Assembly: GCA_947447625.1 (NCBI GenBank)
Contig: CANFKS010000044.1
Location: 1-33,317 of the forward strand
Source of the DNA: Rhodospirillales bacterium
Lineage (GTDB): Bacteria > Pseudomonadota > Alphaproteobacteria > Acetobacterales > Acetobacteraceae
Direction of reading: 5' to 3'
Length of the DNA: 33,317 bases
Shown: positions 186-29,694 of the stretch, piece by piece
Numbering within the stretch: the stretch's first letter is position 1
How the letters are laid out: every line of letters begins with the position of its first letter
Notes under the pieces: model-generated
The model's input: the letters and a program-made list of their open reading frames with translations, nothing else
The model's database searches: none
Told to the model about the DNA's origin: nothing
Program-made: the position numbers and the translations under genes

Positions 186-1163
186 CTACCCCGCAATCTC
201 CCCCGACTTCATCCGCAAAGCCTCCAGCGACTTCCACATCTCCGCATCCCGCTCCGCCGTCCAGATCCGCGGCCGATCGAGCCCCCCCGCCTCGTCATAA
301 GCGCGCGACACATTGAACGGCATGCAGTGATCGAAAATCACCCAATGCCCGAATTCCGGCCGCATCGCCGCCATCGCCTCGGCATAAACCGCCCCGAGCG
401 GCGCCCCCCGTGCCACCCCCGCCTTGGCAATCCCGAACAACCGCGTCGTAAACGCCTCCATCCCGTCCAGCGCCTCCCTCACCTCGGCCGCGTTCATCAA
501 AGCCCGCCCCCGCCCCGGCACCATCTTCTCCGCGCCCAACGCCCGCAGAGCGGCAATCGTCGCCGGCCAATCCGTGAAATGCGCATCCCCGCAATACGGC
601 GTCGCCCCGAACGCCACCGTATCCCCGGCAAACAACACCTTCTCCTTCGGCAACCACACCACCGTATCCCCCGCCGTATGCGACCGTCCGATATGGATCA
701 CCTGCGCCTCGCGATCCCCAAGCCACAACGACATCCGCCCCTGAAAACTCCGCGTCGGCCAGGTCAGCCCCGGAATCCCGTCCCGCCCCCGGAAAAGCTC
801 CGGAAACCGGCCGATTTCGCTGTCCATATCCTGCTGCCCCCGCTCGACGATCATAGCGCGCGTCACATCGGAGCAGATGATCTCATGATACGGATACCCG
901 GTGGCACCCAGCACCCGCAGCGCATGATAATGCGTCAACACGATCGTCCGCACCTTCTGGTCCGTCACCTCGGCAATGCGCCCCTGCACCTCGGCCGCCA
1001 TCGCCGGCGTCGCCTGCGCATCCACCACCACCACCCCGTCCGGCCCGACAATCACCCCCGAATTCGTATCGCCCTGCGCCGAATAGGCATACAGGCCCTT
1101 CCCCAGCTCATCGAACGAGACCGTCTTTTCAGCCATGTCATTGCTCGAAGCGAAGCCGGACAT
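186..1163 (-). CDS. Metallo-beta-lactamase-fold hydrolase with altered metal motif
   Basis: The 325-residue protein has the metallo-beta-lactamase (MBL) fold signatures in order: strand ending VVVDA (~45-49), THYH (77-80), GRSHTAGD (159-166) and FAGDTV (~178-183). The first metal motif of the family, HxHxDH, here reads HYHALR (78-83). The two first-site histidines are kept, but the Asp and His that normally serve the second metal are Leu82 and Arg83. His162 and bridging Asp181 are present. It may therefore bind one metal or use a different site; the substrate is unknown. I chose the ATG at 1163 because GGGGAG lies 7 bases upstream; an internal ATG at 1136 has only a weak site. It diverges from the RidA-like gene across 81 bases, so the two probably share a control region. 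Confidence 0.85.
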   Translation of the reverse strand: MSGFASSNDMAEKTVSFDELGKGLYAYSAQGDTNSGVIVGPDGVVVVDAQATPAMAAEVQGRIAEVTDQKVRTIVLTHYHALRVLGATGYPYHEIICSDVTRAMIVERGQQDMDSEIGRFPELFRGRDGIPGLTWPTRSFQGRMSLWLGDREAQVIHIGRSHTAGDTVVWLPKEKVLFAGDTVAFGATPYCGDAHFTDWPATIAALRALGAEKMVPGRGRALMNAAEVREALDGMEAFTTRLFGIAKAGVARGAPLGAVYAEAMAAMRPEFGHWVIFDHCMPFNVSRAYDEAGGLDRPRIWTAERDAEMWKSLEALRMKSGEIAG

Positions 1164-1244
1164 AATCTGTCTCCCCGGAAACCCGTTTGGCGTCCTTCGG
1201 GCTACAATGTATCCTCCGCCCAAAGCAACACCAAGGAGCGCCCC

Positions 1245-1628
1245 ATGCAACGCCGCGAAATCAACGCCCCCGACGCCCCCGCCCCCGCCGGCTCCTACAG
1301 CCAGGCCATCGAGATCACCGGCGCCACCCGGACCCTTTATGTCAGCGGCCAGGTTCCGGCCGACATCACCGGCCACGTCCCGGACGATCTGCTGAGCCAG
1401 TGCCGCCTCGCCTGGAAAAACGTCGAGGCTCAACTCCGCGCCGCTGGCATGGGGTTCGACAACGTCGTCAAAATCACCACCATCCTGCCCGACCACGCCT
1501 CCCTCGGCGAAAGCCGCAAAGCCCGCGGCGAAGCGATGGGTGATCGCAAACCCGCCAGCACCCTGATCGTCGGCGGCCTCGCCAGCCCTGCCTGGAAAAT
1601 CGAAATCGAAGTCATCGCGTGCGCGTGA
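1245..1628 (+). CDS. RidA/YjgF/UK114-family protein lacking the catalytic arginine
   Basis: The 127-residue protein is full length for the Rid family, whose archetype hydrolyses reactive enamines and imines from amino acid metabolism as a cytosolic trimer. Family features seen are SGQVP (34-38) near the N-terminus, a central KITTIL segment (~76-81) and the C-terminal KIEIEVIA strand (118-125). The arginine that defines active RidA (Arg105 in E. coli, in the motif PARS) is Ser105 here, in PAST. This matches Rid subfamilies without classical imine deaminase activity (established for the family). AAGGAG sits 6 bases before the ATG. The dehydroquinase-like gene starts 10 bases after its stop, so the two are probably co-transcribed. 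The exact function is unknown. Confidence 0.88.
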   Translation: MQRREINAPDAPAPAGSYSQAIEITGATRTLYVSGQVPADITGHVPDDLLSQCRLAWKNVEAQLRAAGMGFDNVVKITTILPDHASLGESRKARGEAMGDRKPASTLIVGGLASPAWKIEIEVIACA

Positions 1629-1638
1629 GGCAACAGAT

Positions 1639-2073
1639 ATGACCCGCATCCTCATCCTCCACGGCGCCGGCATGAACATGCGCGGCAAGGCCCAAGTCGA
1701 CGTCTTCGGCAAAATGACCCTGCCGGAATACGATACCCAGATCCGCGCATTCGCCGCAGCGCTGGACATCGACATCGAGATTTTCCACTCCAACATCGAA
1801 GGCGAAGTCATCAACCGCCTCTATGACGCCCACGACCAGGGCTTCGACGCCGCCATCATCAACCCCTCCGGCTTCACCCGCGGCTACCCCGCCCTCACGG
1901 CGGCCATCGCCGGCGTGAAATTCCCCACCATCGAAGTCCACATCTCCAACCCCGCCCGCCGCGGCCTGGCTTCCGACATCGCCACCGCCAGCCTCGGCGC
2001 CATCGCCGGCTTCGGCATCACCGGCTACGACCTCGCCTTGCGCGGCCTGAAATCCGTCCTGTCGCGCGCCTGA
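1639..2073 (+). CDS. Type II dehydroquinase-fold protein, catalytic residues replaced
   Basis: The 144-residue length and the order of motifs match type II 3-dehydroquinate dehydratase (AroQ): an N-terminal HGAGMN in place of NGPNLN, SNIEGE (51-56) for SNHEGE, INPSGFTR (74-81) for the INPGAYTH segment, and an intact EVHISN (99-104). The catalytic loop is changed: the essential arginine of the GxREP loop is Ala18, and the catalytic tyrosine is Phe23. The substrate-binding His81 is Arg. Asn75 and His101 are kept. A normal dehydratase role in the shikimate pathway is therefore unlikely; it is probably a paralogue with another substrate. It follows the RidA-like gene closely and precedes a transporter and a HyuA-HyuB fusion, pointing to a catabolic cluster. 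Confidence 0.82.
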   Translation: MTRILILHGAGMNMRGKAQVDVFGKMTLPEYDTQIRAFAAALDIDIEIFHSNIEGEVINRLYDAHDQGFDAAIINPSGFTRGYPALTAAIAGVKFPTIEVHISNPARRGLASDIATASLGAIAGFGITGYDLALRGLKSVLSRA

Positions 2074-2086
2074 AAACGAACCCCCT

Positions 2087-2157
2087 GCTCTAACGCTTTG
2101 TTTGATCGCGTGATTCAGACTTTTTGGCGATTCCGCCAAAAATCATCAAGCGCTATA
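2087..2157 (-). repeat. Palindromic repeat R1 (core hairpin plus linker)
   Basis: This is a minus-orientation copy of the window's repeat family. The core stem is TTTTTGGCG-GAAT-CGCCAAAAA (in minus sense), followed by the linker GATCAAACAAAGCGTTAGAGC. The third module, a long hairpin, is absent. It lies between the dehydroquinase-like gene and the DMT transporter. A TTG at 2124 inside it would extend the transporter frame, but that is the repeat reading through by chance. Confidence 0.8.
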
Positions 2158-2165
2158 ACCGGGCG

Positions 2166-3008
2166 ATGATCAGCCGAGCAACCGCCTCCGGCGCGGCAGC
2201 GATCCTCCTGTGGTCACTGCTCGCCCTGCTCTCCCGCGCCGCCGCCAGCATCCCTCCGTTCCAGTTGGCCGCGATGAGCTTCGCCGTGTCCGGCGGGCTG
2301 GGTCTCGCCTGGCTCGTCCTGCGCGGCAATCTTGGCGTCCTGCGCCAGCGCCCGCTCGTGTGGCTGCATGGCGCGGGCGGCCTGTTCGGCTACCACGCAT
2401 TGTTCTTCGCCGCCCTCGCGCGCGCCCCCGCCGCCGAGGCCACCCTCATCAACTACACATGGCCGCTGCTGATCGTGCTGCTTTCGGCTCCTGTCCTCGG
2501 CCTGCGCCTCACCCCCCGACACCTCCTCGGCGTCGCAACCGGCCTCGCCGGCAGCCTGCTGCTGCTCGCGCAAGGCACCAGCTTCAGCGCCGAAGCCATC
2601 TCCGGCTACCTCTTCGCCGCCGGCGCCGCGCTGACCTGGGCGGCATACTCCGTCCTGGCCCGCCGCCTCCACACCGTGCCGAGCAGCGCCGTCCTCGGCT
2701 TCTGCGCCGCCAGCTTCCTCCTCGCCAGCATGGCCCACCTCGCCTTCGAAACCACCGTCATCCCCACGGCCAGCGCCGCCGTCGCCGTCCTGCTGCTGGG
2801 CCTCGGCCCGGTCGGCATCGCTTTCGTCCTGTGGGATACCGGCATGAAACACGGCGACCCCCGCCTGCTCGGAATCCTCGCCTATGCCACCCCGGTGCTC
2901 TCCACCCTGTTCCTCGGCCTCGCCGGCTTCGCCCCCCTGAGCCTCACCACCATCACCGCCGCCCTTCTCGTCACCGCCGGCGGCTGGCTCGCCGCGCGCG
3001 CCGGCTGA
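2166..3008 (+). CDS. EamA/DMT-superfamily metabolite transporter
   Basis: The 280-residue protein has about ten hydrophobic segments arranged as two EamA repeats, the architecture of drug/metabolite transporters in the inner membrane. The first repeat contains AILLWSLLALLSR and ends near LLLLAQG. The second begins around GYLFAAGAALTWAAYSVLAR and contains LGLGPVGIAFVLWD. The ATG at 2166 was chosen over an in-frame TTG at 2124 because the upstream part lies inside repeat R1. No strong ribosome binding site is visible. Members export amino acids, nucleosides or other small metabolites, and the substrate cannot be read from sequence. Its position beside the hydantoinase-like gene suggests a product or intermediate of that pathway (inference). 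Confidence 0.85.
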   Translation: MISRATASGAAAILLWSLLALLSRAAASIPPFQLAAMSFAVSGGLGLAWLVLRGNLGVLRQRPLVWLHGAGGLFGYHALFFAALARAPAAEATLINYTWPLLIVLLSAPVLGLRLTPRHLLGVATGLAGSLLLLAQGTSFSAEAISGYLFAAGAALTWAAYSVLARRLHTVPSSAVLGFCAASFLLASMAHLAFETTVIPTASAAVAVLLLGLGPVGIAFVLWDTGMKHGDPRLLGILAYATPVLSTLFLGLAGFAPLSLTTITAALLVTAGGWLAARAG

Positions 3009-3100
3009 ACCCGAACCCGCCTCCCCCGAACACGGGTTGCGCCCCAGGACCGATGGGGTTTCACTCGCCTATCTTGATCGCCGCGCAGGAGACCACCGCC

Positions 3101-6100
3101 ATGACCGCCACCCACCGCTACCGCATCGGCTTCGACATCGGCGGCACCTTCACCGATTTCATCCTGCTCGACGCCGAACGCCACGACATCCGCCTCCACA
3201 AATGCCTCACCACCCCCGCCGACCCCTCGATCGGCGCGCTCGAAGGCCTCACCGAAATCGTCGCCGCCGCCGGCCTGAATCTCGCCGACATCGGCGAAAT
3301 CGTTCACGGCACCACCCTTGTCACCAACGCCCTCATCGAGCGCAAAGGCGCCAAGCTCGGCCTCATCACCACGCGCGGCTTCCGCGACATCCTGGAGATG
3401 GGCACCGAGCAGCGCTACGACATCTACGACCTCTTCCTCCAATACCCCGCCCCCCTCGTCCCCCGCCGCCGCCGCCTCGAAGTGACCGAACGGCTTGACC
3501 GTGATGGCCTCGTCGTCACCGACATCGACCTCGACGACGTCCGCACCGCCGCACGTCAACTCGTGGCCGACGGCGTCGAAGCCATCGCGGTCGGCTTCCT
3601 TCACGCCTACCGCAACCCCGCCCATGAACGCGCAGCCGGACACGCCATCCGCGCCCTGTTCCCCGACCTCGCCATCTCCCTCTCCTCCGATGTTGTCGCC
3701 GAACTCTGGGAATACCAGCGCATCGCCACCACCTGCGCCAACGCCTTCGTCCAGCCTTTGATGGACCGCTACGTCAAACGCCTCGAACACGAACTCTGCC
3801 AGCGCGGCTTCACGGGCGCGCTCTATTTGATGCACTCCGCCGGCGGCCTCGTCTCGCCCGACACCGCGCGGGCCTTCCCCATCCGCCTCCTCGAATCCGG
3901 CCCCGCCGGCGGCGGCCTCGCCACCGCCTTTTTCGGCAAGCTCGCCGGCAAATCCGACGTCATCTCCTTCGACATGGGCGGCACCACCGCCAAGGCCTGC
4001 CTCATCGAAAACGGCGCCGCCGCGATCGCCTCCGAGATGGAGGCCGCCCGCGTTCACCGCTTCAAAAAAGGCTCCGGCCTGCCCATCAAGGCCCCGGTCA
4101 TCGACATGATCGAAATCGGCGCCGGCGGTGGCTCCCTCGCCAGCGTCGACGAAGTCGGCCTGTTGCGCGTCGGCCCCCATTCCGCCGGCGCTGACCCAGG
4201 CCCCGCCTGCTACGGCCGCGGGGGCAGCGAACCCACCGTCACCGACGCCAACCTCGTCCTCGGCTACTACGACCCCGCCTTCTTCCTCGGCGGGCGCATG
4301 TCCCTCGACCTGCAGGCCGCCCATGACGCGCTGGCCAAGGTCGGCGCCAAAATCGGCCTTGATGCCATCCAAACCGCCTGGGGCATCCACCGCGTCGTCA
4401 CCGAATCGATGGCCGCCGCCGCGCGCATCCACATCGTCGAAAAAGGCCGCGATCCCCGCGCCTACGCCATGGTCGGCTTCGGCGGCGCCGGCCCCGCCCA
4501 CGCCGCCGGCGTCGCCCGCGTCCTCGGCGTCGCGGAGCTCCTGATCCCCCCCGCCTCCGGCGCCGCCTCAGCGCTCGGCTTCCTCGCCGCCCCGCTCTCC
4601 TTCGAGCAGGTCCAATCCCACCCGCTCCGCCTCGATGACCCCGCCGCCGCCGCACGCATCAACGACGTCCTGCGCGAAGTCCAAGCCGAAACCCGCACCC
4701 GCATCACCGCCGCCGGCATCCCGGACGCCGCCGTCGTCACCGAACGCAGCGCCGACATGCGCCTCTTCGGCCAGCTCCACGAAATCAACATCCCCCTCCC
4801 CGACGGCGAAATCACCGACGCCACTATGCCCGCCATCCGCGCCGCCTTCGCCACCGCCTACGCCGCACGCTACACCTCCGTCTACGAAGGCGTCGCCATC
4901 CAGCTCGTCTCCATCCGCATCCGGGCCCGCGGCCCCATTCCCGAACTCACCCTCACCCAGGCGAGTTCCGCCGCCACCGGCCCCGCCCTCAAATCCACCC
5001 GCCAGGCCTTCTTCAATGACCGTTTCCACGACACCCAGGTCTACGACCGCTACGCCCTGCGCCCCGGCGTGCACATCGACGGCCCCGCCATCATCGAGGA
5101 ACGCGAATCCACCACCATCCTCGCCCCCGGCGATTCCATGACCGTGGATGAAACCGGCACCATGCGCATCCGCATCGCCGTCGTCCCCCCCGCCGCCGCC
5201 CTGATCTCCCCCGAAACCCCGCTCGCCACAGCCCGCGCCCTCATCGAGTCTGACCCGGTCTCGCTCGAAATCATGTGGGCCCGCCTCATCACCGTCGTCG
5301 AAGAGATGTGGCACACCATCGTGCGCACCGCTTTCTCCCTCATCATCTCCGAAGCACAAGACTTCGCCACCGACCTGCTGGACCCAGACGGCGAATCACT
5401 CGCCCATTCGCCGCGCGCCATGCCCGTCTTCAACCTCACCGTCCCCATCGCCGTCAAAGCCCTCCTCAAAAAATACCCCCCGCACACCCTCAAACCCGGC
5501 GACGTCCTGATCACCAATGATCCCTGGCTCTGCGCCGGCCATCTCTTCGACATCGCCGTCATCACCCCCGTCTTCCGCGGCACCCACCTCGTGGCGCTGA
5601 CCGCCACCGTCGGCCATGTCGGTGACATCGGCGGCACCAAGGACAGCCTGCGCGCCCGCGAAATCTACGACGAAGGCTTCCAGATCCCGCCGATGATGCT
5701 CTACCGCGCCGGCGTGCCGAACGATGACCTCCTCGCCCTGCTTCACGAAAACGTCCGCAAACCTGACGAAGTCCTGGGCGATCTCCACTCCTTCGTCGCC
5801 GCCAACCAACTCGGCGCCGACCGCCTCGTCGCCTTCATGAACGACTACGGCATGCATGACCTCCGGGCACTTGCCGCCGTCGTGCAGGACCGCTCCGAAC
5901 ACGCCATGCGCGATGCCATCCGCGCCCTGCCCGACGGCACCTACACCTCCGAAGTCTTCAACAACCCGCTCGGCACCAAGCTCCGCTACCCCGTCAAAAT
6001 CACCGTCTCTGGCGACACCATCGAAACCGACTTCACCGGCGCCCCCCCCCAACAACCCCAAGGCGGCCTCAACTGCACCTACAGCTACACCGCCGCCCAC

Positions 6101-6877
6101 ACCACCTACCCGCTCAAATGCATCCTCTCGCCCCAAATCCGCAGCAACGCCGGCTGCTACCGGCCCTTCACCGTCAAAATCCCTGAAGCCTCCATCCTCA
6201 ACGCCCAAAAACCCGTCGCCGTGAACCTGCGCACCCGCACCGGCTGGTACATCGCCCCCAACATCTTCCGCGCCCTCGCCGAAGCCGCCCCCAACCAGGT
6301 CCAAGCCGCCACCGGCCTGCCCCACGCCGTCAACATCTATGGCCGCGACAGCACCGGACACACCTACGCCGACCACTTCTTCATGGGCGGCGGCCAAGGC
6401 GCATCGGCCCGCTCGGACGGCAAATCCGCCCTCCTTTACCCGACCAGCGCCTCCAACACCTCCATCGAACTCCTCGAAACCCGCGCCCCCGTCCTCGTGC
6501 TGGAAAAAACCTTCGTGCCCGACAGCGGCGGCCCCGGCCAACACCGCGGCGGCCTCGGCGTGCGCACGAGCCTGCGGAAACTCCACGACGACGGCCTCCC
6601 CACCCTGTTCTCCATCTACCCCGAAGGCGTCGGCATCACCAACGAAGGCCTCTTCGGTGGCCGCCACGGCGGCGGCGTCCACGGCATCATCAAAGCCCCC
6701 GACGGCACCACCCTCCACAACTGCGGCACCGGCGAACTCGTCACCCTCGACCGCACCGACCGCATCGTCGAAGTCCAACTCGCCGGCGGCTCCGGCTACG
6801 GCAACCCCCAAAACCGCGTGCCCGAAGCCCTCGAAAACGACCTCGCCGACGGCTACATCACTGCCCCCTACACCTGA
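3101..6877 (+). CDS. Fused HyuA-HyuB hydantoinase/5-oxoprolinase-type enzyme
   Basis: A single 1258-residue chain carries both halves of an ATP-dependent hydantoinase/oxoprolinase. The HyuA half (about 1-700) has the N-terminal ATPase motif GFDIGGTFTDF (10-20), HGTTLVTNAL, the second phosphate motif ISFDMGGTTAKA (~287-298), the GAGGGS segment, and a C-terminal domain ending near residue 700. The HyuB half begins near residue 713 with DPVSLEIMWARL and contains ITNDPW, GHVGDIGG and DFTGAPPQ. Most bacterial members are two genes; the fused order resembles eukaryotic 5-oxoprolinase (about 1290 residues). The family opens cyclic amides, or carboxylates ketones, with ATP; the actual substrate is unknown. 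AGGAG lies 9 bases before the ATG. A C9 run at 6042-6050 is in frame. Confidence 0.9.
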   Translation: MTATHRYRIGFDIGGTFTDFILLDAERHDIRLHKCLTTPADPSIGALEGLTEIVAAAGLNLADIGEIVHGTTLVTNALIERKGAKLGLITTRGFRDILEMGTEQRYDIYDLFLQYPAPLVPRRRRLEVTERLDRDGLVVTDIDLDDVRTAARQLVADGVEAIAVGFLHAYRNPAHERAAGHAIRALFPDLAISLSSDVVAELWEYQRIATTCANAFVQPLMDRYVKRLEHELCQRGFTGALYLMHSAGGLVSPDTARAFPIRLLESGPAGGGLATAFFGKLAGKSDVISFDMGGTTAKACLIENGAAAIASEMEAARVHRFKKGSGLPIKAPVIDMIEIGAGGGSLASVDEVGLLRVGPHSAGADPGPACYGRGGSEPTVTDANLVLGYYDPAFFLGGRMSLDLQAAHDALAKVGAKIGLDAIQTAWGIHRVVTESMAAAARIHIVEKGRDPRAYAMVGFGGAGPAHAAGVARVLGVAELLIPPASGAASALGFLAAPLSFEQVQSHPLRLDDPAAAARINDVLREVQAETRTRITAAGIPDAAVVTERSADMRLFGQLHEINIPLPDGEITDATMPAIRAAFATAYAARYTSVYEGVAIQLVSIRIRARGPIPELTLTQASSAATGPALKSTRQAFFNDRFHDTQVYDRYALRPGVHIDGPAIIEERESTTILAPGDSMTVDETGTMRIRIAVVPPAAALISPETPLATARALIESDPVSLEIMWARLITVVEEMWHTIVRTAFSLIISEAQDFATDLLDPDGESLAHSPRAMPVFNLTVPIAVKALLKKYPPHTLKPGDVLITNDPWLCAGHLFDIAVITPVFRGTHLVALTATVGHVGDIGGTKDSLRAREIYDEGFQIPPMMLYRAGVPNDDLLALLHENVRKPDEVLGDLHSFVAANQLGADRLVAFMNDYGMHDLRALAAVVQDRSEHAMRDAIRALPDGTYTSEVFNNPLGTKLRYPVKITVSGDTIETDFTGAPPQQPQGGLNCTYSYTAAHTTYPLKCILSPQIRSNAGCYRPFTVKIPEASILNAQKPVAVNLRTRTGWYIAPNIFRALAEAAPNQVQAATGLPHAVNIYGRDSTGHTYADHFFMGGGQGASARSDGKSALLYPTSASNTSIELLETRAPVLVLEKTFVPDSGGPGQHRGGLGVRTSLRKLHDDGLPTLFSIYPEGVGITNEGLFGGRHGGGVHGIIKAPDGTTLHNCGTGELVTLDRTDRIVEVQLAGGSGYGNPQNRVPEALENDLADGYITAPYT

Positions 6878-7020
6878 CGAGAAACCCGCAGACTGGCGCG
6901 CGCTTTGGTGCCCCCCACCCCCAAGAGCCCCCCATGCCCCCCCGCACCGTCATCCCCCAGTCCCGTTTTCAAAACCCCCGGACCGGCCCCACCCACTCAC
7001 GTCCCAATTGTTGCTTTTAG

Positions 7021-7048
7021 TTATCAAAAAAGCCCAACTGGATATAAT
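7021..7048 (+). promoter_or_regulatory. Candidate sigma-70 promoter for pobA
   Basis: A perfect -10 box TATAAT (7043-7048) lies 16 bases after TTATCA (7021-7026, 4 of 6 matches to the -35 consensus). It sits in an AT-rich patch within the 252-base gap upstream of pobA. The rest of that gap (6878-7010) is C-rich and holds nothing else recognisable. Confidence 0.5.
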
Positions 7049-7129
7049 ACCAGCGAGCCCGCCGCCCGTGCATGGCGCCGCCTGCCGATCCATCGTTATC
7101 TCCCATCATAAAACTTCTGGGGAACACGC

Positions 7130-8311
7130 ATGACGGACTCCGCGCTGCGCACACAAGTCGGCATCATCGGCGCCGGCCCCGCCGGCCTCCTCCTCGCCCA
7201 GATCCTGCATCTGCACGGTATCGACAGCATCATCATCGAGGCCCAGTCCCGACCTCACATCGAAAGCCGCGTCCGCGCCGGCCTCATGGAACATGATTCC
7301 TGCCAGCAAATGCGCGACGCCGGAATCGGCGCCCGGATGGACCGCGAAGGCTTGGTTCACGAAGGCATTATCCTGCGCTTCGCCGGCCACAGCCACCGCA
7401 TCCCCCTCACCGAACTCACCGGCCGCCGCGTCACCGTCTACGGCCAGCAGGAGGTCGTCAAAGACCTCATCGCCGCCCGCCTCGCCACTGGCCGCCCCCT
7501 CTTCTTCGAAGCTCCCGCCATCGCCATCGAAAACACCGATACCCCCAAAATCCACTTCCGCCACAACGGCACCGAAAAAACCATCCTCTGCGACTTCATC
7601 GCCGGCTGCGACGGGTTCCACGGCCCCTCCCGCGCCAGCATCCCCGCGCACCGAATGAAAATCTTCGAACGCGTCTACCCTTTCGGCTGGCTCGGCATCC
7701 TCGCCGAATCCCCCCCCGCCAGCCACGAACTCGTCTATGCCAGCCACCCAGGCGGCTTCGCCCTCCTCTCCATGCGCTCGCCGCGCATCAGCCGCCTCTA
7801 CCTTCAATGCGCACCCGACGAAAACCTGGCCGACTGGTCCGACGCGCGCATCTGGGACGAACTCGACACCCGCCTCGCCGACCGCGAATCCACCCCCCTC
7901 CCCCGCGGCCCCATCCTGCAAAAAGGCATCACCCCGCTGCGCAGCTTCGTCGCCGAACCCATGCGCCACCACCGCCTCTTCCTCCTCGGTGACGCCGCCC
8001 ATATCGTGCCCCCCACCGGCGCGAAGGGCCTCAACCTGGCCTTCGCCGACGTCCACGTCCTCGCTCGCGCCTTCACCGCCTGGTATCAAGACAACGAAGC
8101 CGACGGCCTCGAAACCTACTCCGCCACCGCGCTGCGCCGCGTCTGGCAAGCCGAGCGGTTCGCCTGGTGGATGACCACCCTGATGCACCGCTTCGACAAC
8201 CACTCTCCCTTCGAAGCCCGCATGCAGGAGGCCGAGCTTGACTACCTCACCTCGTCCAAAGCCGGCATGACCACCATCGCCGAAAACTACGTAGGCCTGC
8301 GCCTCCTCTGA
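7130..8311 (+). CDS. pobA: 4-hydroxybenzoate 3-monooxygenase
   Basis: This FAD- and NADPH-dependent enzyme converts 4-hydroxybenzoate to protocatechuate in the cytosol, feeding the beta-ketoadipate pathway. The 393-residue chain matches PobA along its length: GAGPAG FAD motif (14-19), AGCDGFHG (158-165), and LLGDAAH (285-291) followed by PPTGAKGLNLA. Active-site residues known from the Pseudomonas enzyme are present with a two-residue offset: Tyr203, Ser214, Arg216, Tyr224 and Tyr387. GGGGA lies just before the ATG. No pobR-type regulator and no protocatechuate genes are in the window, so it stands alone here. A TATAAT promoter lies upstream. The assignment is firm from sequence identity of motifs. 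Confidence 0.95.
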   Translation: MTDSALRTQVGIIGAGPAGLLLAQILHLHGIDSIIIEAQSRPHIESRVRAGLMEHDSCQQMRDAGIGARMDREGLVHEGIILRFAGHSHRIPLTELTGRRVTVYGQQEVVKDLIAARLATGRPLFFEAPAIAIENTDTPKIHFRHNGTEKTILCDFIAGCDGFHGPSRASIPAHRMKIFERVYPFGWLGILAESPPASHELVYASHPGGFALLSMRSPRISRLYLQCAPDENLADWSDARIWDELDTRLADRESTPLPRGPILQKGITPLRSFVAEPMRHHRLFLLGDAAHIVPPTGAKGLNLAFADVHVLARAFTAWYQDNEADGLETYSATALRRVWQAERFAWWMTTLMHRFDNHSPFEARMQEAELDYLTSSKAGMTTIAENYVGLRLL

Positions 8312-8390
8312 GCCCCCCCGTCAGCCCGCGTCATGGAATCATCACACGCATTTGAGCCGGCTTGGTCTGTTTGTTACGAAATTGTTAATT

Positions 8391-8494
8391 TAGAGCCTGA
8401 TGATTTTTGGTGGAATCACCAAAAATCTGAATCAGGCGATCAAACAAAGAGTTAGAGCGGGATGCCTTCGCCTATCAGAAGGCATCCCGCTCTA
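8391..8494 (+). repeat. Palindromic repeat R2 (complete, with compensatory core change)
   Basis: This is a complete copy. TAGAGCCTGATGA leads into the core stem TTTTTGGTG-GAAT-CACCAAAAA, closed by ATCAGGC. The linker GATCAAACAAAGAG follows, then a perfect inverted repeat of about 18 bp (arm TTAGAGCGGGATGCCTTC, 8-base loop). The core differs from the other copies by C-to-T on one arm and the matching G-to-A on the other, so pairing is preserved. The linker and long hairpin are identical to repeat R4. Confidence 0.88.
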
Positions 8495-8512
8495 ACGCTC
8501 CGGAGCCTGCGA

Positions 8513-8751
8513 ATGGCAAAATGCCCCGCTCGCCTGTTGCTGCTCTCGGCAACCGTGGCTGCCCTGTCGCCCGCCGCGCAGGCCAACCCAAGCCAGTTCA
8601 ACGTGGTCGGTTTCACCAGCGACGATCTCGCGGGCTCCACCTTCGCGCCCGAGTTGGTGCCGGAACCCACCACGCTCGCGCTGTTTGGCTTCGGCATCGC
8701 CAGCCTTGCCATGCTGCGCCGGTGGGACAACCAGGCCTTATCGAACACTGG
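8513..8751 (+). pseudogene. Remnant of a PEP-CTERM exported protein
   Basis: The reading frame begins with an ATG and a signal peptide (hydrophobic RLLLLSATVAAL, cleavage likely after AQA). After only some 27 residues it reaches a PEP-CTERM sorting signal: VPEPTT, a hydrophobic stretch LALFGFGIASLAML, and RR. Such signals are cut by an exosortase and belong at the very C-terminus. Here there is no stop after the RR. The frame runs on into the antisense of the next gene, so the gene has lost its natural end and probably most of its middle. A functional micro-protein is possible but less likely. The 3' limit given is approximate. Confidence 0.6.
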
Positions 8752-8761
8752 ACGTTTCGTT

Positions 8762-9877
8762 TCAGAGGGCGCCCCAGACGTCGCGGGCAACCTCGACGCA
8801 CAGTTCCAATTTGCGCCACTGCTCGTCCTCGGTCAGCAAATTGCCCTCCTCGGTGCTGGCAAATCCGCATTGCGGGCTCAGCGCCAACTGGTCGAGCGAC
8901 ACATATTTGGCAGCCTCGTCGATCCGCCGCTTGAGGTCGTCCTTGCTTTCGAGTTTCCCGGTCTTGCTGGTGACAAGCCCGAGCACGACGACCTTGTCGC
9001 CCTTGGGGACAAACCGCAGCGGCTCGAACCCGCCGGCGCGATCGCTGTCCCATTCCATGAAATAGGCATCGACGTTGATGCGGTTGAACAACGTCTCGGC
9101 CACCGGCTCATACCCGCCGGATGCCACGAACGTGGACCGGAAATTCCCCCGGCACAAATGCATCGACACCATCATATCCGCCGGGCGGCCATCGATGGCG
9201 CGGTTGATCAACGTTGCGTAGATGTCAACAAGCCCCTCGATATAGTCGCCGCGCTGCTTGAGTTGGGCGATCTGCTCGGGGTCGCAGAGATAAGCGAGGT
9301 TGACCTCATCGAGTTGCAGATACCGGCATCCAGCCGCGGCGAAGGCGCCCACCGCGTCGTGATAGGCGGTGCCGAGATCGGTAAAGAATGCGGCGATATC
9401 GGGATAGACCGCGCGATCGATCGACTGCCGCCCGCCGCGGAAATGCAGCACCGAGGGGGAGGGGATGGTCTGCTTGGCGATCGCGGATTTCACGTGCGCG
9501 GCAGTGACGCCGTAATCCGCGACGAAGGCCGGTTCCTTCCAGGCGATGCGGCCATTCACCTTCAGCCGGTGCGGCAGCATCGCGCCACCTTTGAATTCGA
9601 TGCGCTGCTCCGGCACGTAGAGTTCGGCGCCTTCGAGTTTGGCGACGAAATCATAGTGCCAATAGGCCCGGCGGTATTCGCCGTCGGTCGCGGCGCGCAG
9701 GCCGATCGACTCCTGTTTGGCGATGGCGCCGGCGATGCTGGCATCCTCGATGGCGCGCATTGCATCGGCAGGCAACGTGCCGGCGGCATGGGCGGCGCGG
9801 GCTTCGCGCAGTTTAACGGGGCGCAACAGGCTGCCGACATGATCGGCGCGGAAGGGGGGGCGGGTGCGAGCGGTCAT
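8762..9877 (-). CDS. MetE-core cobalamin-independent methionine synthase-like protein
   Basis: The 371-residue protein corresponds to the C-terminal catalytic half of MetE (the YxjG/YxjH type) without the N-terminal folate-binding half. The zinc ligands of MetE are all recognisable: His240 and Cys242 in MHLCRGN, Glu275 in FMEWDSD and Cys337 in SPQCGFAS. Asp190 (LQLDE) fits the homocysteine-binding acid. Core-only enzymes transfer methyl groups to homocysteine or a related thiol from donors other than polyglutamyl folate; the donor is unknown here. AGGAGG lies 8 bases before the ATG. It is divergent from hpnN with 99 bases between the starts. Its 3' end runs against the PEP-CTERM remnant. Confidence 0.88.
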   Translation of the reverse strand: MTARTRPPFRADHVGSLLRPVKLREARAAHAAGTLPADAMRAIEDASIAGAIAKQESIGLRAATDGEYRRAYWHYDFVAKLEGAELYVPEQRIEFKGGAMLPHRLKVNGRIAWKEPAFVADYGVTAAHVKSAIAKQTIPSPSVLHFRGGRQSIDRAVYPDIAAFFTDLGTAYHDAVGAFAAAGCRYLQLDEVNLAYLCDPEQIAQLKQRGDYIEGLVDIYATLINRAIDGRPADMMVSMHLCRGNFRSTFVASGGYEPVAETLFNRINVDAYFMEWDSDRAGGFEPLRFVPKGDKVVVLGLVTSKTGKLESKDDLKRRIDEAAKYVSLDQLALSPQCGFASTEEGNLLTEDEQWRKLELCVEVARDVWGAL

Positions 9878-9976
9878 GACGGGCCTCCTGGGATTGGCGG
9901 GTTGTCGCCCGGCTGGGATGTTTCGTCAAAAACTGAACGGTTGGACGACGCCAAGCGGGGGGAGTAATCGAACGCC

Positions 9977-12571
9977 ATGACGCTCTCTCTCCTGTTGGCC
10001 GGCATCGCCGGGTATTGCGGTCGCAACGCGTGGCGCGTGGTGTTGATCGGGTTTCTGTTGGCGCTGCTATCCGGCGGCCTGGCATATGTCCGCCTCGGCG
10101 TAAGCACGGACACCGACGCCCTTTTCGCGGCCGACCTGCCGTGGCGCAAGCGCGCGATGGCGCTGGACCGGGATTTCCCGCAGTTCCGCGATCTGCTCGT
10201 CGCCGTGATCGAAGCCCGCAGCCCGGAGGTGGCGGAGGCCACGGCAGCGGGGCTGGAGGCCGCGTTGAAGGCCGATGCGCTGCATTTCAGCTTCGTCCGC
10301 CGGCCGGATGCCTCGCCTTATCTGGAAGCCAACGGGTTGTTGTTCCTCGACCAGGCCGCGTTGCAGGACCTGCTGGATCGCACGATCGACGCGCAGCCGT
10401 TCCTGGGCCAGTTGGCGGCCGATCCATCGGCGCGTGGGCTGTTTGCGGCCCTGTCGCTGCTGGCGATCGGGGCCGAGCAGGGGGCCAATCTCGCGCCGTT
10501 CGCTGGCCCGCTCGGGATGTTTCATACGGCGCTGGCGGATGCGGCGGCGGGCAGGGCACAGCCCTTGTCGTGGCAGTCTCTGCTGGGCGGCGGGTTGGCT
10601 GAAAAGGCCGGGCCGTACCGGTTCGTGCTGGCCCGGGCGAAGCTGGACCTCATGGCGCTTGAACCTGGCGGGGCCGCGGGAGCGGCGTTGCGCAAAGCGG
10701 CGGCGGGGCTGGAATTCGTGCGCGATGGCGCGGCGCAGGTGCGGCTGACCGGGGCGGTGGCACTGCAGGACGAGGAATTCTCGACTGTGGCGGAAGGTGC
10801 CCTGGCGGGCGCGATCGGCAGTGCGGCGTTGGTGCTGTTGTGGCTGGTGCTGGCGGTGCGCAGCATCCGGCTGATCGTGCCGATCATCGCCACGCTGGGT
10901 CTGGGTCTGGTGATCACGACGGGGTTTGCGGCGCTGGCGATCGGCACGCTCAATTTGATTTCGGTGGCCTTCGCGGTGCTGTTCGTGGGCATCGCAGTCG
11001 ATCTGGCGATCCAGTACTGCGTCAGCGCACGGGCGCTGCGGCAGACGATGGCGCTCGACGCGGTGATCGAAGGAGCGGCGGTGATGGTGGGGCCGCCGGT
11101 GCTGGTGTCGGCCATGGCGGCGGCGGCGGGATTTCTCGCATTTGCGCCGACCTCCTTTAAGGGTGTGGCCGAACTCGGGTTGATCGCCGGGTTCGGCATG
11201 TTCGTGGCTTTGATCGCGACGATGACGTTTCTGCCGGCGATGCTGGCGCTGTGCCGGCCGCAGGCGGGCCGCAAGGCGGTCGGCATGGCGGCGGGCGCGT
11301 GGCTCGAAGTGCGGCTGACTGCGCATCGGCCCTGGGTGCTGGGCGGGTTCGCGCTGCTCGGCATGGCGGGCGGCGTGATGGCGCCGCTTCTCGCGTTCGA
11401 CAGCGATCCGCTCCACACCAAGGACCCGACGACGGAGGCGATGCTGACATTGGCCGATCTGGCGGCCTCGCCGCTGACCAACCCGTACAGCATCGACATC
11501 ATGATGCCGTCGCGCGCAGCGGCGGATGCGCTGGTGCCGAAGCTCGAAAAACTGCCGCTGGTCGCCGAGGTGACCACGCTGTCGAGTTTTGTTCCGACGG
11601 ACCAGGCGAAAAAACTGGAGGCGATTGCCGATGCGGCGGGGTTGCTCAATGCCTCGCTGGCGCCGCGCGCGCCGGCCGCGGCGGTGACGCCGGCGGATAT
11701 TCGGCTGGCAGCTAAGGCGACGCTGGGGCAGATCGAGCATGCCAGCGCGAAACTCAAGAGCGACGATCCGTTGCGGGCACTCGCGGCGGACCTCAAGGCA
11801 CTGGCGGCGGCGGATGATGCGACGCTGATGGCAGCCAATGCGGCGCTGACGCGGTTTCTGCCGGTGCAGCTGGCGCGGCTGCGCGCTGGGCTGGCGGCTG
11901 GGCCGGTGGCGGCGGAGGCGGTGCCGGCGGCAATCGCGCGGGACTGGCTGTTGCCGGATGGGCGGGTGCGCGTGCAGGTGACCCCCCTGGAGGGACCGAG
12001 GGGCGAGGGTGCGCGCGGGCAGGATGGGATCCGCGCGTTCGTGGCCCAGGTGCGCGAGGTGGTGCCGGAGGCGGCGGGCTCGGCGGTGCAGATCGTCGAG
12101 ACGGCGGCGACCATTGTGGGGGCCTTTTGGCAGGCGACGATTGCGGCGGTGCTGGCGATCGCGCTTCTGCTGGCGGCCGTGCTGCGGCGGACGATGGATG
12201 TGCTGATCGTGCTGCTGGCGCTCGGGCTTTCGGCGTTGCTGACGGTGCTGGGGGCGGTGCTGCTGGGGATGTCGTTGAATTTCGCCAACATCATCGCGCT
12301 GCCGTTGTTGCAGGGGGTCGGGGTGTCATTCAATATCTATTTCGTGATGAATTGGCGGGCCGGGCAGGCACGGTTTCTGGGCACACCGACAGCGCGGGCG
12401 ATCCTGTTTTCGGCGCTGACGACCGCCACGGCGTTCGGGTCGCTGGCGCTGAGCCGTCATCCGGGCACGGCAAGCATGGGCGCGTTGTTGCTGCTGAGCC
12501 TCGGGGCGACGATGGCGGTGACGCTGCTGTTTCTGCCGACGATGCTGCGGGCGTTAATGCGGGAAGGCTGA
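9977..12571 (+). CDS. hpnN: Hopanoid-associated RND transporter HpnN
   Basis: The 864-residue MMPL/RND-type membrane protein has one N-terminal transmembrane helix (VVLIGFLLALLSGG), a large periplasmic loop, and a first membrane bundle (~275-425). A second start helix (WVLGGFALLGMAGG), a second periplasmic loop opening with FDSDPLHTKDP, and a final membrane bundle (~710-860) follow. The two-repeat layout, length and FDSDPLHTKDP loop fit HpnN, which moves hopanoids from the inner to the outer membrane. No other hopanoid genes lie in this window, so it is separated from the usual hpn cluster here. The start is the first ATG of the frame that keeps the N-terminal helix. Other MMPL proteins are the main alternative. 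Confidence 0.87.
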   Translation: MTLSLLLAGIAGYCGRNAWRVVLIGFLLALLSGGLAYVRLGVSTDTDALFAADLPWRKRAMALDRDFPQFRDLLVAVIEARSPEVAEATAAGLEAALKADALHFSFVRRPDASPYLEANGLLFLDQAALQDLLDRTIDAQPFLGQLAADPSARGLFAALSLLAIGAEQGANLAPFAGPLGMFHTALADAAAGRAQPLSWQSLLGGGLAEKAGPYRFVLARAKLDLMALEPGGAAGAALRKAAAGLEFVRDGAAQVRLTGAVALQDEEFSTVAEGALAGAIGSAALVLLWLVLAVRSIRLIVPIIATLGLGLVITTGFAALAIGTLNLISVAFAVLFVGIAVDLAIQYCVSARALRQTMALDAVIEGAAVMVGPPVLVSAMAAAAGFLAFAPTSFKGVAELGLIAGFGMFVALIATMTFLPAMLALCRPQAGRKAVGMAAGAWLEVRLTAHRPWVLGGFALLGMAGGVMAPLLAFDSDPLHTKDPTTEAMLTLADLAASPLTNPYSIDIMMPSRAAADALVPKLEKLPLVAEVTTLSSFVPTDQAKKLEAIADAAGLLNASLAPRAPAAAVTPADIRLAAKATLGQIEHASAKLKSDDPLRALAADLKALAAADDATLMAANAALTRFLPVQLARLRAGLAAGPVAAEAVPAAIARDWLLPDGRVRVQVTPLEGPRGEGARGQDGIRAFVAQVREVVPEAAGSAVQIVETAATIVGAFWQATIAAVLAIALLLAAVLRRTMDVLIVLLALGLSALLTVLGAVLLGMSLNFANIIALPLLQGVGVSFNIYFVMNWRAGQARFLGTPTARAILFSALTTATAFGSLALSRHPGTASMGALLLLSLGATMAVTLLFLPTMLRALMREG

Positions 12572-28302: not shown

Positions 28303-29694
28303 TCAGTCGGGCTGCTGCGGCAGTTCCGATCTGACGGGGCGGAGTTTGCCTGCCGCGGTGCGCGGGATGCGGTCGCAGTAGGACAGGTCGATCTCGAAGC
28401 CGGTGCCGACGTCCTTAGCCATGATGGCACGGACCTGGCTGATCTCGTCGTCGGTCAGCGGACGGGCGATGGCAAGCAGGACATCGATGCGGTGCAGGCT
28501 GCGCTGAATGACTTGGTATTCCTTCACCGCCCTGATTTTCGACAGGGCATAATGATCGAAAAAGAACCGGCGGCGGCGGCCGTCGGGGCGGGTGAGATGG
28601 TCGATCGTTCGCCCGAGGATGCGCTTGAGGAGCGGCAGTCCGCGGCCGCAGGAGCAGGCTTCGGCGCATTCGGCGTCATCGCCGATTTCGTAGCGCAGCA
28701 GGGGGGTGGCGAAATTGTGTAGGGGCGTGACGACCACGCGGCCGCATGCGCCGGGGGGCACGGGGTTTGAGTCCGCATCCAGGATTTCGACGAGGCACGT
28801 TTCCGACTGGACGTGGAGCGCCGTGGAGGTAGGGCATTGCAGGGCGATGTAGCCGGTTTCTGCGGTGCTGTAATTGCTGACGATGCGCACGCCGAGCGTG
28901 TCCTGACAGAGCTGGCGCAGGGCATCATCGACGGTTTCGCTGCGTGTCCAGACCGCGCGCAGGCCGGGGAAGGCGATCCCGCGGTTCCGGCAGTGCCAAA
29001 GAATCAGACGCAACGTGGACGGGAGCGTGTAGATGTAGCTGGGGGCATGTTTGAGGATGAAATCGACATGTGTTTCAGCAGGGTGGTTCAGATCGATCAT
29101 GTGGAGCGGGCCGGTTGTCCAGATCTGGCTCTGGATTCCGCCCCATTGCGGCACGCTCACGCCGTCGCGGGTGGAGCCGGCCAGTCGCTCGGCCTCTGAC
29201 ATCGAGCGGGGCAGACCCGCGATCACGACGAGCGCGCCGGTGCGATCTTCGCGGTGCCACAGTTCCTCGCGGATGTGGATTGCCTCCCACATCAGGTTGG
29301 CGAATTCGGATTTGTGGATGCGCACGGGGACGCCGGTCGAGCCGCCGGAAGCGATTTCGCCGATGCGCCCGTGCGATGGCGGGAGCACAGCGGGGTTGAG
29401 TGCGTCGCCCGCGTCCTGCACGTCATGGCGCGTGAGGGTGGGGATGCGGGACCAGGCTTGCCAGGTGAGCGGCGCACCAGGTTCGAGGCCGGCGGCGCGG
29501 AGACGGTCGGCATAGAACGGGACGGCGCGTGTGGCGAAATTCACGAGCGCGGCGAGTTGGCGGAGTTGTTCGGCACGCAAACGCTCGGCATCCCACCACT
29601 GGCTTTGGCCGAGGTGATGCTGCAGAGCCATCAGCGTGGCGGGGCGGCCGGTGAGGATGGGCGGGAAGATGTTTGAACCGATCGAAGATCGCAC
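28303..29694 (-). CDS. Phenylacetate-CoA ligase (PaaK/CapK)-like adenylating enzyme
   Basis: The 463-residue protein belongs to the PaaK/CapK branch of adenylate-forming enzymes. The phosphate loop is SGGSTGVP (116-123). NYSTAETGYIA and RYEIGDDAE (about residues 345-353) match the adenine-binding and ribose-binding motifs, and the CSCGRGLP cluster is typical of this branch. A C-terminal domain with the expected lysine in TAAGKLRPV closes the chain. It activates a carboxylic acid as an acyl adenylate; whether the acceptor is CoA or a sugar/polymer is not evident. The start is GTG at 29694, with AGGAG 8 bases upstream. It diverges from an SDR gene. The stop is three bases from repeat R5. Confidence 0.85.
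   Translation of the reverse strand: MRSSIGSNIFPPILTGRPATLMALQHHLGQSQWWDAERLRAEQLRQLAALVNFATRAVPFYADRLRAAGLEPGAPLTWQAWSRIPTLTRHDVQDAGDALNPAVLPPSHGRIGEIASGGSTGVPVRIHKSEFANLMWEAIHIREELWHREDRTGALVVIAGLPRSMSEAERLAGSTRDGVSVPQWGGIQSQIWTTGPLHMIDLNHPAETHVDFILKHAPSYIYTLPSTLRLILWHCRNRGIAFPGLRAVWTRSETVDDALRQLCQDTLGVRIVSNYSTAETGYIALQCPTSTALHVQSETCLVEILDADSNPVPPGACGRVVVTPLHNFATPLLRYEIGDDAECAEACSCGRGLPLLKRILGRTIDHLTRPDGRRRRFFFDHYALSKIRAVKEYQVIQRSLHRIDVLLAIARPLTDDEISQVRAIMAKDVGTGFEIDLSYCDRIPRTAAGKLRPVRSELPQQPD

Follow-up and report, generated by a model that had tools for sequence, protein, structure and literature searches.

A family of AroQ-like proteins lacking the essential residues of type II dehydroquinase, and the catabolic genes beside it in a Rhodospirillales genome

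We wondered whether five neighbouring genes of a Rhodospirillales bacterium, several of which encode familiar enzyme folds with altered catalytic residues, form a single pathway or were brought together from separate sources. The genes lie at the beginning of a stretch of 33,317 nucleotides, called the window here (contig 44, CANFKS010000044.1, of genome G000, assembly GCA_947447625.1), whose start is the contig end. The nearest named relatives in a search with the AroQ-like gene are metagenome-assembled genomes (MAGs) of Rhodospirillales and Acetobacteraceae. An earlier note on this DNA had placed a metallo-beta-lactamase (MBL)-fold protein, a RidA-like protein, an AroQ-like protein, a drug/metabolite transporter (DMT) exporter and a fused HyuA-HyuB protein (HyuAB) between positions 186 and 6877 and had proposed that they diverged together towards the breakdown of a cyclic amide or imide. 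All five genes are present as described, which confirms the observation; the interpretation is partly supported. MBL, RidA-like, DMT and HyuAB are proteins of known kinds, and the AroQ-like protein is the one unusual member. It seems probable to us that the catabolic and accessory genes of the window were brought together inside a single genus and do not make up one pathway that evolved jointly, and that the AroQ-like protein comes from a distinct family of long standing with the fold of type II dehydroquinase.

The AroQ-like gene (1639..2073, plus strand) encodes a protein of 144 amino acids that matches Pfam DHquinase_II with 109 bits against a cut-off of 23.3, so the similarity is not due to chance. 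Its scores nevertheless lie under all five NCBIfam AroQ cut-offs (TIGR01088, 112.7 vs 169.85 bits). An AlphaFold model (m8f12925bef1d) reached a predicted local distance difference test (pLDDT) value of 89, and all 50 matches listed by a Foldseek search of the PDB with this model were type II dehydroquinases, with TM-scores of 0.83-0.92. According to the excerpted text of PMC6011038, type II dehydroquinase cannot do without Arg19, Tyr24 and Asp88'. In the same excerpts Ser103, Asn75 and main-chain amides contact the substrate carboxylate, Asn75 and the proton donor His101 contact the C1 hydroxyl, His81 and Arg112 reach the C5 hydroxyl, and Asp88' reaches the C4 hydroxyl. The window protein carries Ala for Arg19 and Phe for Tyr24 (M. 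tuberculosis numbering), which bears out the earlier claim that the Arg and Tyr are missing, and to this the losses of Asp88 and His81 can be added.

We aligned 56 members of the subfamily, the window included, with 25 ordinary AroQ controls; alignment positions 18, 23 and 88 correspond to Arg19, Tyr24 and Asp88 of M. tuberculosis. At position 18 Arg occurs in none of the 56 members but in 25/25 controls, at position 23 Phe occurs in 55/56 members where all 25 controls have Tyr, and at position 88 Asp is absent from all members (Ala in 46) and present in 25/25 controls. All three essential residues are thus replaced in 55 of the 56 members, the remaining one retaining the Tyr. Asn75, Glu99, His101 and Arg108 are each found in 56/56 members and Ser103 in 53, with Thr in the other three. 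Arg15, where 25/25 controls have Leu, and Lys17 are likewise present in all 56. A lid signature fits 56/56 members and 0/25 controls, being derived from these same sequences; among 14 further members Arg15, Lys17 and Phe23 are retained throughout and 11 fit the signature. Judged by this alignment and the contacts in the excerpted source, the pocket for the carboxylate and alpha-hydroxyl (Asn75, Ser103, His101) is retained, and the residues that touch the C4 and C5 hydroxyls (Asp88', His81, Arg112) are lost, as is the catalytic Tyr/Arg pair on the lid.

The subfamily is clearly set apart from ordinary AroQ. Relatives of the AroQ-like gene were taken as the best 80 of 476 confirmed stretches, which is not a census, and among these identity breaks sharply: 55 loci match at 51-90% and the following 25 at no more than 44%. 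In a tree built from 50 canonical rows together with 34 of the 56 from the subfamily, one branch separates the two groups, with a support of 100/100 and a length of 1.05. We read 70 distinct subfamily genes (69 plus the window), mainly from Pseudomonadota and Chloroflexota; phylum counts are not pressed because some MAG titles are doubtful (L063 is near-identical to L067, and L065 is syntenic with L064). The spread is patchy, with the subfamily in at least 19 of 200 family genomes and in at least one of 398 genomes of a phylum sample (the window's own) at E 1e-36. Reyranella soli NBRC 108950, a deposited strain, has a copy (L054). In the literature on dehydroquinase, SAR202 and hydantoinase with RidA we found nothing recognisable as this subfamily, which is weak evidence of absence as subscription journals were mostly uncovered. 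The excerpted part of PMC7506110 counts a type II gene of marine Dehalococcoidia, which may or may not belong to the AroQ-like subfamily, as a shikimate gene. Matches on plasmids (301 and 288 records), all below 60% identity, were set aside as ordinary AroQ on identity alone.

Other variants of AroQ were met in the course of these searches. Five of 25 AroQ copies from relatives (L002, on contig 34 of the window's own genome, and L011, L012, L025 and L026) are paralogues with Thr for His81 that retain the essential Arg, Tyr and Asp. A third AroQ copy with Ala10 and Gly109 occurs in two Reyranella and one Rhodospirillales genome (L289-L291), and it too keeps all three essential residues. More than one lineage may have branched off within the type II dehydroquinase fold.

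As a same-genome control we used 32 genomes that carry the AroQ-like gene, taken from 32 of the 55 loci. In 31 of them another, strongly scoring type II gene was found, and these copies have the canonical Tyr in 31/31, Asp in 31/31 and Arg in 30/30 cases where the stretch reaches the position; a type I dehydroquinase was found in 0/32. Because the essential residues are replaced and canonical copies are present in 31 of the 32 genomes, the AroQ-like protein, judged by its sequence, is very unlikely to be a shikimate dehydroquinase.

We looked for hints to its substrate among neighbouring genes. The open reading frames (ORFs) of the 55 loci were clustered, 40 neighbouring proteins were scanned against Pfam, and Pfam families were tallied for 115 immediately adjacent genes at 60 loci. 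The tally lists the 25 commonest families, leaves out five near-copies and includes two redundant loci (L198 and L199 repeat L060 and L046). The commonest family among immediate neighbours, the TctC receptors, accounts for just 6 of 115, so that context does not fix the substrate. Five Chloroflexota loci have genes for a hydroxypyruvate/2-oxo-tetronate isomerase and an AceE-like protein directly upstream; the representative isomerase scores above both NCBIfam cut-offs and the AceE-like protein far under its own. Genes for 2-hydroxyacid dehydrogenase and MocA-type proteins are also among the neighbours. This mixed neighbourhood leans towards small hydroxy-acids, undecided as it is.

The predicted fold, the separateness of the family, the loss of the three essential residues and the ordinary dehydroquinases in the same genomes are all established. 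The AroQ-like protein would most likely be a catabolic enzyme for another hydroxy-carboxylate, with a substrate and chemistry that we infer. Such an enzyme would bind the carboxylate and adjacent hydroxyl of a different molecule through the retained pocket, the chemistry at the other end having changed. His101 would keep the role of acid that it has in dehydroquinase, and Arg15 and Lys17, invariant in the lid, would take the place of Arg19 and Tyr24. The reaction could be the addition or removal of water, or the isomerisation of a hydroxy-acid, in the breakdown of small acids or sugar acids, and the RidA and HyuAB proteins of the window would serve lactam or hydantoin breakdown beside it without having to share a substrate. 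In this full detail, with His101 as acid and Arg15/Lys17 as replacements, the account is tentative and somewhat unlikely to hold. A new enzyme family on this fold, with the pocket and His101 retained, the tyrosinate base replaced by an Arg15/Lys17 lid, a small hydroxy-acid as substrate and a role in environmental catabolism that includes SAR202 and other Chloroflexota, is a possibility to which we give rather less than even chances.

The loss of the three essential residues in 55/56 members together with the lack of a fixed partner enzyme would also suit a non-catalytic ligand-binding or regulatory protein on the dehydroquinase fold. We regard this as unlikely: it has against it Asn75, His101 and Arg108 in 56/56 members, Ser103 in 53 and the new charged lid invariant Arg15, and no constant regulatory partner was found among the scanned neighbours. 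It is more improbable still, and strongly so, that the protein remains a dehydroquinase working through other residues, whether to break down quinate or to back up the shikimate enzyme. The whole fold is retained, as the TM-scores and the DHquinase_II match attest, and one of the 32 genomes (G633) has neither another type II gene nor a type I gene; yet two genomes that share the neighbourhood of G633 (G632 and G634, loci L071 and L075) do have another type II gene, canonical copies stand in the 31 others, and Arg19, Tyr24 and Asp88' are the very residues that the excerpts of PMC6011038 call essential. G633 weighs against a new catabolic family too, and so do several further observations. The lid of the model is of low confidence (block means 64 and 77), L064 is a subfamily member that retains Tyr23, and position 81 is variable within the subfamily. 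Lys17 also occurs in ordinary AroQ (6/25 controls, 5/25 relatives and 13/31 same-genome copies), which leaves Arg15 as the one truly new invariant; Gln19 and Pro105 are present in some canonical copies as well, and three of the 14 further members, all from genus g57, differ at position 19. On the side of context, no constant partner gene was found by the 55-locus clustering, among the 40 scanned proteins or in the 115-neighbour tally, and another five Chloroflexota loci have MFS and protoglobin genes in place of the isomerase and AceE-like pair. Finally, links of RidA to AroQ-like and to HyuAB, described below, leave room for a shared function.

Are the five genes one unit? The altered residues do not argue for joint divergence as the earlier note had thought, since the MBL pattern is found in 36/36 sequences, Ser105 of RidA in 13/14 and the AroQ changes across phyla, in relatives located away from the other genes. 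Because each change is shared by such relatives, we read the altered residues as older than the gene cluster. The conserved neighbourhood that the note had itself suggested looking for does not extend beyond the genus: among the 55 AroQ-like relatives, MBL, RidA and HyuAB lie alongside solely in L034 and L035, both from the window's genus and the same stretches as L144 (genome G003) and L164 (genome G004). Among the loci examined, MBL, RidA, AroQ-like and HyuAB are thus together in three species of one genus only. The DMT exporter has a match in L035 and none in L034, where RidA is separated from AroQ-like by an MFS gene, and AroQ-like from HyuAB by a transglutaminase-like gene. In another genome of the genus (G001), the four families are on four separate contigs. 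Positions of RidA and AroQ in relatives were taken from tblastn, as the ORF caller merged or missed both in some loci.

We then counted the families in 120 family genomes, compiled by hand, with HyuAB called present at 60% identity or more and four fragmentary or split copies included; RidA is found in 12, this HyuAB in 28, MBL in 40 and AroQ-like in 12. HyuAB accompanies RidA in 10/12 RidA genomes versus 28/120 overall (Fisher p 5e-6; 7e-5 with the genus counted once), AroQ-like in 5/12 (p 0.002; 0.04) and MBL in 9/12 (p 0.002; 0.01), p values that are optimistic because the genomes are related. Co-occurrence was not significant in this sample for MBL-AroQ (p 0.17), HyuAB-AroQ (p 0.11) or MBL-HyuAB. 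Outside the window's genus, RidA lies 0.1-2 kb from AroQ-like, convergently, in three species of genus g57 (L200, L203, L205), and 2.7 kb from HyuAB in a further genus (L238), where RidA, a TRAP transporter (named through a member of its cluster), HyuAB and PobA form a single-strand run. A betaproteobacterium (L055) has HyuB, HyuA, an amidohydrolase, TctC and AroQ-like on one strand. Leaving aside the window and G003, RidA and HyuAB are within 3 kb of each other in one of eight genomes having both, and RidA stands behind a gene for a thiamine pyrophosphate (TPP) enzyme in L203, L205 and L246 (one representative scanned).

These data show that a partial association of the genes is real and that a five-gene pathway is not demonstrated. 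Such a pathway, in which HyuAB opens a cyclic amide or imide ring, the products are handled by RidA and AroQ-like, DMT exports and all diverged jointly, appears improbable to us. It draws on the RidA-AroQ-DMT-HyuAB order, all on the plus strand with short gaps (10 bp between RidA and AroQ-like), on the co-occurrence of RidA and HyuAB, on the proximity of RidA to AroQ-like in a second genus and to HyuAB in a third, and on the L055 run. What speaks against it is that MBL, RidA, AroQ-like and HyuAB were found together nowhere outside the genus among the loci examined, that the four families are scattered in G001, that L034 has intervening genes and no DMT match, and that neither MBL nor HyuAB is significantly associated with AroQ-like. 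A smaller module, in which RidA with Ser105 and the fused HyuAB act jointly on an amide and AroQ-like and MBL are bystanders, is compatible with our preferred reading and quite conceivable, although we hold it at less than an even chance. The Fisher test and the L238 run favour this module, while the rarity of close RidA-HyuAB pairs, the placing of RidA behind TPP-enzyme genes and the kinship of the genomes count against it.

The remaining genes are of familiar types. The MBL gene (186..1136, minus strand; Pfam Lactamase_B) encodes a protein that retains the first-site histidines and Asp221, with Asp120, His121 and His263 replaced by Leu, Arg and Arg respectively, in what we take to be the standard numbering; the second metal site is thus lost, as had been noted. 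This loss, with Asp221 retained, is seen in 36/36 sequences of 48-100% identity, a set that includes the window and counts G003 twice. At 23 MBL loci outside the three cluster genomes, a flavin adenine dinucleotide (FAD) monooxygenase gene is near in 18, a homogentisate-pathway gene in 12 and neither in five; one representative each of HmgA, MaiA and FahA scored above its NCBIfam cut-off, and a second HmgA cluster was labelled by eye. In L146, L147, L161, L163, L170, L172 and L173 the MBL family occurs with homogentisate genes and a PRK08132-type FAD monooxygenase; a literature search on the MBL-homogentisate pairing found no paper.

The RidA-like gene (1245..1628, plus strand) has AAGGAG at 1233-1238, 6 nt upstream of its ATG, the good ribosome binding site that had been claimed. 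Its product matches Pfam Ribonuc_L-PSP with 82.2 bits (cut-off 27.3) and falls under the TIGR00004 cut-off (62 vs 106 bits); position 105 is Ser in the window and in 13/14 sequences, the window included, and Leu in one, so that Arg105 is indeed missing. The DMT/EamA exporter (2166..3008, plus strand) is of the YddG type for aromatic amino acids (NF050091, 315 bits; cut-off 300). The fused HyuAB (3101..6877, plus strand; 1258 amino acids) is of the ATP-dependent lactamase/hydantoinase type and contains the HyuA N, A and C and the HyuB domains in order, four Pfam domains in all. Relative to L034, ratios of nonsynonymous to synonymous substitution rates (dN/dS) are 0.13 for MBL, 0.11 for RidA and 0.30 each for AroQ-like and HyuAB; these four genes are therefore under constraint, in agreement with the view that they are not decaying. 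The DMT gene has no match in L034, and in the comparison with L035 dS exceeds 1.7 or is undefined.

Downstream lies a PobA-type 4-hydroxybenzoate 3-monooxygenase gene (7130..8311, plus strand; TIGR02360, 547.9 bits, cut-off 538.7), and PobA again adjoins HyuAB in two genomes from a different genus (L238 and L245). HyuAB, PobA, a MetE-like gene and an RND transporter are found close together, as a full or partial set, in several genera (window 3101-12571, L238, L245, L248, L251), a grouping more widely conserved than the five genes. In L245 (G130, 1521-5260) HyuA and HyuB, fused in close relatives, are two overlapping frames, which may reflect a split gene or a frameshift. At 8451-8496 on the minus strand, in the stretch that separates PobA from the MetE-like gene, a 19-pair stem with a T-rich tail resembles a terminator. 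About 29 identical bases at two intergenic sites (about 2139, and 16218 on the minus strand), with a possible third site near 28330 where a similar peptide occurs within a spurious ORF, suggest an interspersed DNA repeat.

If our reading of the AroQ-like family is correct, the fold of a well-studied drug target, type II dehydroquinase, has been reused, and assigning genes to the shikimate pathway on fold alone can mislead, also in SAR202 and other Chloroflexota; the family also offers a small protein in which to seek new activity. Compared with known systems, the window MBL is closest among solved structures to 8d2z (E 8e-108), which it matches over residues 2-307 with common HYHAxR and PGRG motifs. 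HyuAB matches the single-chain N-methylhydantoinase 7hk5 over its full length (E 4e-177) and shares its fused A-B architecture. It also shares its domain content with 6yra, which we take from the chains of that entry to be the caprolactamase CapAB, but its 536 and 208 bits fall short of the NCBIfam cut-offs for caprolactamase, 1000 bits. The metal tetrad of HyuB is named as Asp-His-Asp-His in the excerpted part of PMC8453981; its candidate counterparts in the window protein, in the GHLFD and GHVGD motifs, were read by eye. Serine at position 105 is given for about 10% of RidA proteins in the excerpts of PMC4433059, and the window protein has the Rid domain and length of these Ser105 proteins; it differs in scoring under the TIGR00004 cut-off. 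With type II AroQ (DHQ2; PF01220, TIGR01088) the AroQ-like protein has in common the fold, the length, the SNxEG motif and Asn75, Glu99, His101, Ser103, Asn104 and Arg108. It differs in the replacement of Arg19, Tyr24, Asp88' and His81, in the new invariant Arg15, in its score below the TIGR01088 cut-off and, relative to A. baumannii AroQ, in an Arg112-bearing segment that is three residues shorter.

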